Assembly (NCBI GenBank): GCA_023251875.1
Contig: JAHEXY010000008.1
Span: 186,001-250,000, forward strand
Length of the DNA stretch: 64,000 bases
Direction of reading: 5' to 3'
Origin: Bacteroidota bacterium
GTDB lineage: Bacteria; Bacteroidota; Bacteroidia; JAHEXY01
Below the pieces are notes generated by a model, which saw only the letters and a program-made list of their open reading frames with translations, was not told the DNA's origin and did no database searches. A program made the position numbers and the translations under genes. This document shows, piece by piece, positions 56,148 to 58,837 of this stretch. The stretch's first letter is position 1. Every line of letters starts with the position of its first letter.

Positions 56148-56187
56148 AAAAAAAGCTTCTCAGATTTTCTGAGAAGCTTTTTTTTGT
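56148..56187. terminator. Bidirectional terminator between metK and the T9SS type B gene
   Basis: AAAAGCTTCTCAG (56151-56163) and CTGAGAAGCTTTT (56169-56181) form a perfect 13-base stem with a five-base loop, T-run on the plus strand and A-run on the other side. It should end both metK and the convergent type B cargo gene. Confidence 0.92.
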
Positions 56188-56201: not shown

Positions 56202-58732
56202 TTATTCTCTAATCAGCGAAATAAATCCGCTTCCTGAATAATCTTTAAAAGGAGAAACAGCCGTAGTTATGTAATAGTAAGTTCCTGCAGGAGCATTAGA
56301 TCCTGATTTGGTTTTACCATCCCAATATTTTGTTGCATCTGTAGTTTCAAACATTAATTTTCCCCAACGATTATAAATTTTTATCTCAAATTGATCTAAG
56401 CCACTATTAGGAATTGAAAAGTAATCATTTATACCATCACCGTTTGGCGTAAATACATTTCCTAAATTGTATTTTTCAAAAACATCTATAGTGCTGTACA
56501 ATGTATCCAAACAACCAATACTATTTTGAACAATTACACTAACATTATAAGTGCCTTGTAAAAGATAAGTATGATCAGGATTTTGAAGTGTAGAAGTTGT
56601 GCTATCACCAAAATTCCATTCTAATACTGTACCGCCATTTGTGATAGTAGGATCAAACTGAATATGATTTTCTGAAATTTGAGTAGAAACAAAACTAGCT
56701 ACAAAAGTAAGAGCTGTTACTTGCACACTTTGGTTTACGGTAGTTCCACAGCTATCTTTTACAGAAATAGTAATGGTAGTTACACTATCAGCAAATACTT
56801 GTAATGAGTCTCCTTCATAAGGCAAATTATTCCATAAAATGGTATAATCTTCTTGGCCTCCGCTAATAATTGGGCTTACCCAAATACTTTCGCCTTTACA
56901 TAAGTTAGTATCATTGGGTAATAGTATTGATAGAGGACTAATATTGGGCATCGTAACGGTAACTTTTTTAACAACTGAATCAAGTTTACAAGAGTCGCTA
57001 ACCGTAACTAAATATTGCGTAGTAGATGTTGGAGATACAACAATAGAATTGGTAGTAGATGCATTATTCCATTCATAATGATAATTGCCATAACCTCCTG
57101 TTCCCTGAGTAAACAATGTAATTTCTGCAGGGCAATACAATGTTGTATCATTACTAATATTAGCTCCAAGCGGAGAAATAACCGGTAAGGTAATGGTTAC
57201 GGCATCGGTAGTTTTAGTTCCGCAAATATCTTTTAGTGTAACTATATAAGTTGTGGTTGTAGTAGGATTTACTGTTACTACAGAATCTGAACTTAAAATT
57301 GTAGTCCAACTAAAAGTATGAGCTCCCACACCTCCACTGGCTAATGCCGTTAATGTTACAGGAGCCGGGCAAAATAATGTAGTATCTGAAAGTACATTTA
57401 GTTTTAAGCTATCGGCAATGGGAATGGTTACTTTAATAGTATCAGATACAGGTTGTACTCCACAAGTATCACTTACTACAACATAATACGTTGTTGAAAC
57501 TTTTGGAGAAACATTAATAGTTTCAAGTGTATCAGTAGTACTCCATAAATATTGGTAATTGCCTGTGCCGCCTTGAACAAAAGTTGAAAGTGTAAGTGAA
57601 TTGGGGCAAAGTATTGTTGTATCATTAGAACTTGAAATGGTTAAGGGCACGATATCATTTACTATAAGTGTAAGCGGAATAGTAATGGTATCGGTTCCGC
57701 TAATAGAAGTAACATTAATGTATAAATCTTCAGGCCCCTCTGTCATGGTATCTACCAAAGCATTAAAATAAAGTTGCATGGTATCTGAATTGGTAAAAAT
57801 AAGTGTGTCGGGCAAGGTTGTAACATCTATACCATTAAGAGCTGTACCCGAATAAGATAAATAAATAGTATCGGATGTCATTAATGCTGATTTAACAAAA
57901 GTAATTTCAGCTTGTCCGCAACCTTCAAAAAGTGTAGAGTCGTTTCCTGGGGATAAAATAGTAAGTGTAGTTGTAACATTTCCTTTAAAGCTTTTTGCTT
58001 CTAAAAGTACTCCTGAATCTAAACTATGATCACCGGCATCTGCAACAGCAATTTTAATATGATAGGTTTGGCCTGGAACAAGACTATCAGCAATAGCTTC
58101 TAGAACCGTTGTAAATCCATCGTATTCTATCGTTTTTCCTTTAGGATTTTCATTATCGAAATAATAACTGCTGTTTTTATTTTTATTTACATTGTCAATA
58201 GATACATAGCTACTGGTATTGGGTATTAATGCAATATTTTTTTTACCGATAATTTGATAGCCACTTAAAAAAAAACAAATACATCATTGTAACTAGAGTT
58301 AACATATTCCATGTATTCTTCAGAACCAAATACATAACGAAAAGTAATTTTTGAAGAAGTGGGAATAAAATCGAACTCAAGAATACATGCATCATAAGTA
58401 GTTTTACTGCATAATGCAGTTAAATCAGCATCTCCATTTAAACTATTACTGGTTGATTTACCAGTTGAGTTATTAGGGCCAACAGCATTTACAATATCTC
58501 CACTTGTTAAAACAATACCACTATCAAGCCCAATATTTGAGTTTGTACCGTTAAAATAGCCAATAGCTTTTGATGCCCCTGTATAAGTAATATTACTAAC
58601 CGAAACACCTGAACCTAAAAAAACATCTTTAACCAATTGGGTGGTTGTATATGAGTTATTAACTACCAATTGCGCCTGTAGTAAGGAGTTAAGAGCAACA
58701 ATAAAAAAACTTAATAGTGCTATTTTTTTCAT
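56202..58732 (-). pseudogene. T9SS type B surface protein with choice-of-anchor L domain, frameshifted
   Basis: Read as one gene it would encode about 843 residues. The N-terminal frame (58265-58732) has a signal peptide ending LQAQ and the first half of a choice-of-anchor L domain (SGIVLTSGDIVNAVGPNN, FRYVFGSEEYMEYVNSSYNDVF). It stops at a run of nine T on the minus strand. The second frame begins just beyond it at SGYQIIGKKNIALIPNTSSYVSI and completes the domain with YDGFTTVLEAI and YHIKIAVADAGDHSLDSGVLLEA, then runs on without interruption. It continues through four Ig-like repeats of about 85 residues, a PKD domain (NGGTVLEWNFGDSTTS) and the type B sorting domain (FTPNGDGINDYFSIPNS...IYNRWGKLMFE). 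One added T would restore the gene. It could be a sequencing error, a real mutation or a phase-variable switch. Confidence 0.85.
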
Positions 58733-58837
58733 TTTTTTATAAAAAAATTATTAATAAATCCATCAGGCATTATAGGTCAATGCAAAGATACCATCTTTCG
58801 TAATTAGGTAATAGAACATAACAAAAGAAATATCAGC

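Follow-up and report, generated by a model that had tools for sequence, protein, structure and literature searches.

One of the five choice-of-anchor L paralogues in the genome of a Bacteroidota bacterium is divided between two reading frames at a run of nine T residues, and our favored explanation, held at about even confidence, is that a recent replication slip of one base switched the gene off. The frame break is most likely an ordinary event. The gene lies within a 64,000-nucleotide stretch of DNA (the window; C14:186001-250000), which belongs to a 4,807,429-base, 100% complete assembly in 23 contigs. All of the 39 genomes offered as relatives share only the class with it; among one genome per species of GTDB 220 there is no close relative (four are weakly related), and none was found in the viral contigs scanned. 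The locus has no second copy in the genome, where its four paralogues show 66-71% DNA identity.

The gene would normally encode one secreted surface protein, about 840 residues long. Midway through the domain lies a conserved Phe-Phe-(Leu/Ile/Val) motif; this motif, the AT-rich genome and an adjacent Gly-to-Val change adding a T may together have produced an unusually long T run, on which DNA polymerase would have slipped and left the length off by one base. Translation would now halt in mid-domain. The short product would keep the signal peptide and be without the T9SS sorting domain, and the remainder would have the sorting domain without a signal peptide; with the two elements on separate products, no product should reach the surface. 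The event is presumably recent, because there is no other break in the 688 codons that follow. Slippage of RNA polymerase or of the ribosome on the run could yield a trickle of full-length protein.

Anatomy of the split gene

The coding strand is the minus strand, and the nine T residues correspond to nine A residues on the plus strand at 58267-58275. The upstream frame (58265-58732, minus strand, 155 amino acids) starts with an ATG at 58732 and ends at the run with a TAA at 58267-58265. The downstream frame (56202-58268, minus strand, 688 amino acids plus stop) encodes the second half of the choice-of-anchor L domain, a repeat region that shows SprB-like matches, PKD sequence and a T9SS type B C-terminal domain. 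It is one frame away from the upstream frame and is open from 58283 to 56202, with 688 stop-free codons past the run. In the two other forward frames of this part, the 688 codons contain 47 and 74 stops. A TGA at 58286-58284 closes the downstream frame and the TAA at 58267-58265 the upstream frame, so that the change of frame must sit within the 19 bases from 58283 to 58265, which include the run; this argument is independent of homology. The initial annotation had placed a one-base frameshift in the run of nine T, and the stops in both frames confirm that placement to within this interval. The downstream frame has its first ATG at 57881, 383 bases beyond the upstream stop, and the listed open reading frame at 56202-57881 is a mechanical one only.

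The identity proposed for the protein, a choice-of-anchor L protein with T9SS type B sorting, is borne out by profile matches. The NF038133 (choice-of-anchor L) profile, with a cut-off of 27 bits, is matched at positions 2-124 by the upstream frame (155.8 bits, E 1.1e-45) and at positions 127-219 by the downstream frame (111 bits, E 5.5e-32; residues 3-94 of P0001, 57987-58262, minus strand). The domain is not in a single frame but is split at profile position 124/127, and both of its halves are conserved, as had been claimed. Matches on both sides of the run, together with the 688 stop-free codons, exceed what chance coincidence of two frames would give. The T9SS type B sorting domain, at 56208-56462 on the minus strand (C14:242208-242462 in the genome), scores 55.3 bits with TIGR04131 (cut-off 35) and 78 bits with PF13585 CHU_C (cut-off 27), and is preceded in the downstream frame by PKD and SprB-like stretches. 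The upstream frame opens with a signal-peptide-like start, MKKIALLSFFIVALNSLLQAQ, as judged by eye and by hydrophobicity rather than by SignalP. This start is found on the upstream frame only and the sorting domain on the downstream frame only; inspection by eye found no signal peptide after the first ATG of the downstream frame. A search of solved structures found none related to the first half of the domain (best E 0.15); for the second half and the remainder of the protein, the matches were confined to PKD domains of collagenases and similar proteins. A literature search under the name of the choice-of-anchor L domain found nothing.

The sequences flanking the gene were also inspected. A terminator-like hairpin of 17 pairs with a T tail lies at 56148-56184 (minus strand), between the split gene and a convergent neighbor that appears from its sequence to be metK-like. 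Two terminator-like sites were found in the region, with 1.5 expected by chance. The hairpin has an A stretch before it and a T stretch after it, and it is probably a terminator shared by both convergent genes. At the other end of the gene, 58 bases before the ATG, the octamer TATCTTTG (58783-58790, minus strand) fits TAnnTTTG, which we take to be the -7 element of Bacteroidota promoters; such octamers occur 101 times in 128,000 bases (both strands of the window), and the assignment as a promoter element is suggestive only. Apart from the reading frame, all features of the gene look intact.

Conservation and family survey

The two halves of the domain give summed scores of 157.6 + 118.9 = 276.5 bits in a six-frame search, a value beaten by only two of 206 unbroken family domains (279.5 and 277.5). 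The halves therefore score jointly like the best intact relatives, which argues that the break is recent, false or bypassed. There is no general decay of the split gene. In an alignment with 34 unbroken members, where a conserved column was defined as one that is the same in at least 90% of the others, the split gene deviates at four of 82 conserved columns; the unbroken members deviate at between 0 and 20. Two of the deviations adjoin the run. Just before it the split gene has Val, where all 34 others have Gly or Ala, and four residues past it there is a Tyr, where 33 of the 34 have Pro. The clustering of deviations near the run (two of nine near columns vs two of 73 elsewhere) is borderline, with a Fisher p of 0.058. 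The claim that the gene carries no other lesions was thus upheld for the frame, the stops, the signal peptide and the terminator-like hairpin, but not for these two near-invariant residues. Their alteration so close to the run (no more than four codons away) is not accounted for by a single recent slip on its own; it counts against the slip that we favor, as does the fact that the base count rests on one assembly.

The Gly-to-Val change lengthened the run: in the four intact paralogues the TTT codons follow GGT, GGC or GCT, and the run at the same motif is six or seven T long. By eye, eight or more T at the motif were seen in none of the 32 aligned members that had not been picked by a T-run pattern. 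The other two aligned members, L056 (C3:471026-471046) and L059 (C6:34917-34937), are from a single genome of the class (G275) and entered the alignment through that pattern; they have T9 and T8 at the motif, in unbroken frames. The split gene resembles the NF038133 paralogues L001-L004 in its domain, its signal-peptide-like start, its C-terminal sorting domain and its T-rich Phe-Phe motif. It differs from them in the frame, which is broken at the motif, and in two residues beside it, where Val replaces Gly/Ala and Tyr replaces Pro. Two of the paralogues, L002 and L004, are intact choice-of-anchor L, T9SS type B genes arranged in tandem on one strand (G000 C19:373349-377391).

The family was surveyed in 97 of 295 drawn genomes (40 including its own, yielding 86 rows, and 57 more, yielding 129 rows). 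The 215 rows comprise 206 domains that cross profile positions 124-127 in one frame, the two halves of the split gene, and seven rows that were set aside as not crossing these positions. Of the latter, G023 C85 and G022 C29 stop at contig ends, G013 C176 and G049 C88 begin at bases 3 and 35 of their contigs, G048 C2 and G088 C419 match only within the first 48 profile positions, and G012 C41 is a first piece from a gene with an in-frame TAA elsewhere. Only one of the 207 spanning domains in the 97 genomes, that of the window gene, is broken at profile positions 124-127, and a conserved programmed frameshift is rejected on the strength of the 206 unbroken domains. A DNA pattern for the shifted motif had matches in eight of the 295 genomes, including its own, and no match in the seven other genomes reads as a member of the choice-of-anchor L family. 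Judged by eye, with no profile run, the pattern hits L051-L055, L057, L058, L060-L064, L066 and L067 are not choice-of-anchor L; L056 and L059, which the T-run pattern had picked, do read as choice-of-anchor L and are unbroken.

The T9SS type B sorting domain has 50 matches in the genome, 46 of them over the cut-off. Three of the 50 were left out because the sequence before them is unusable: L162 is preceded by an N gap, L170 lies at a contig end, and the stretch fetched for L180 is too short. By a hydrophobicity rule and by eye, rather than by SignalP, the 47 assessable genes comprise 38 with an ATG before a hydrophobic stretch, eight with a GTG or TTG before one, and one that is broken, the window gene. 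The eight without an ATG before the hydrophobic stretch, with apparent GTG or TTG starts, are L134, L136, L139, L148, L166, L173, L175 and L179.

Homopolymer runs in the assembly

The main rival to a replication slip is that sequencing or the consensus got the length of this one run wrong, in which case the living cell would have an intact gene; we regard this as possible, if on the whole doubtful. Such errors are typical of runs like these nine T, and the gene is otherwise undecayed, as the error would have it. In addition, the GeneTack survey expects singleton frameshifts that are validated by BLASTP to be mostly sequencing errors rather than true indels (PMC3711429).

The evidence on the other side comes from the assembly itself. 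A census of homopolymers covered the window and 20 stretches of 20 kb (464 kb, 400 kb of it outside the window), a non-random sample in which several stretches were placed to take in T9SS paralogues. It found 18 intact coding A/T runs of at least nine bases (12 A9, 2 A10, 3 T9 and 1 T10) and a single shifted one, in the window gene. The 18 intact runs bound the error rate loosely, below about 16%. Gaps of 10 and 100 N were found in three of the fetched stretches, and we take such gaps to be the sign of a short-read assembly. Assemblies of this kind are less prone to homopolymer length errors, which again speaks against a consensus error. Some of these gaps (100 N in L034, 10 N in L045/L162) interrupt long stretches of repetitive coding DNA and thereby leave some large surface genes incomplete.

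A frame-change model applied to the same 464 kb returned 52 events, of which 23 had flanks of at least 150 bases on both sides. Two of these 23 are at N gaps, and 20 others are read as overlapping or adjacent genes because a downstream ATG, GTG or TTG lies at most 85 bases past the upstream stop, vs the 383 bases from upstream stop to downstream start in the window gene. Shifts were also flagged at shorter runs (2 A7, 2 A8 and 1 T7), and these are read as neighboring or overlapping genes or as short model noise. No comparable run-linked break was found in the 400 kb outside the window. An error-ridden assembly is disfavored by the run census, with which a single error is still compatible. The break is singular in the family, among the T9SS type B genes and in these 400 kb, which argues against a conserved programmed frameshift as well as against a homopolymer-ridden assembly.

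Long coding runs are scarcer than the codon usage of the genome would give. Relative to an expectation from shuffled synonymous codons (259 open reading frames, 121,156 codons), coding T9 was seen twice vs 9.6 expected, a depletion of about fivefold, and runs of at least ten T once vs 6.8. The corresponding figures for A are 16 vs 27.6 for A9 and 2 vs 17.6 for at least ten. The fivefold depletion of T9 argues that such sites are costly, and the pattern is the one expected if runs slip and are selected against. Selection against A/T runs is reported to be evident from nine bases upward in many of 108 bacterial genomes, and, as that study notes, run depletion does not separate slippage in replication from slippage in transcription (PMC1088944).

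Switching, recoding and the fate of the gene

The run might instead turn a surface protein reversibly on and off and have been caught in the off state, but such phase variation seems improbable here. As would be expected of a phase-variable locus, a homopolymer whose length sets the frame is present inside the coding region, exactly at the break, and the gene is otherwise preserved. The product would be surface-exposed, and T9 runs are also present in two more T9SS type B genes, where they may be further slip sites. On the other hand, nine bases is short for a contingency locus. Long coding T runs are depleted rather than enriched, 46 of the 47 assessable T9SS type B genes are unbroken (among them the two with T9 runs, L147 at C22:119198-125041 and L159 at C22:485490-490445, both G000), and no other choice-of-anchor L member in the 97 genomes is broken at this point. 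The GeneTack survey names surface proteins as the usual phase-variable class (PMC3711429). Like surface genes that vary in phase by slipped-strand mispairing in homopolymers, the window gene encodes a surface protein and has its frame break in a homopolymer; it is unlike them in that its run is only nine T and all the remaining T9SS type B genes that could be assessed are unbroken. Among the papers listed for homopolymer-tract phase variation in Bacteroidetes or with T9SS, none was of this kind.

Recoding, in which RNA polymerase slippage on the U9 or a -1 ribosomal slip would make some full-length protein at a reduced level, also appears rather unlikely. The message has a slippery U UUU UUU directly before the UAA, and in many genomes selection against A/T runs shows from a length of nine bases (PMC1088944). 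Comparable genes in insect endosymbionts are known to be rescued by transcriptional slippage; Blochmannia keeps genes in poly-A/T tracts that are frameshifted and undegraded, with about 30% full-length transcripts cited from earlier work (PMC3017870). In E. coli and Buchnera, transcriptional single-base insertions rise exponentially with the length of an A/T run (PMC5574713), and insertion is the direction that fits the window gene. Against recoding, relatives do not share the frame transition (206 of the 207 spanning domains keep to one frame), long T runs are depleted in the genome, and RNA structure around the site is not beyond chance (z 0.21; 107 of 200 shuffles fold as well). The genome-wide study of transcription errors, moreover, saw none that restored a frame (PMC5574713). 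The window gene resembles the Blochmannia and Buchnera genes in being AT-rich and otherwise undecayed, with one indel in a long A/T run and with recoding a possibility. In contrast to those genes, it belongs to a genome of 4.8 Mb in which long coding T runs are selected against, encodes a surface protein with four intact paralogues, and is known from DNA alone (PMC3017870).

A broader proposal is that the Phe-Phe-(Leu/Ile) motif of choice-of-anchor L domains serves AT-rich relatives as an inbuilt contingency site, and that in this species the run has been allowed to grow, so that polymerase slippage at the DNA or RNA level would set the fraction of cells or transcripts that make this T9SS surface protein; this we consider unlikely. 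If the break is the isolated replication slip that we favor, it has little consequence: in the sequenced strain, one surface protein out of five paralogues is probably switched off, and the split gene will appear as two fragments in annotation. If run lengths were mixed, the locus would act as a simple switch for a T9SS surface protein, with a run that arises from the domain's own conserved motif.
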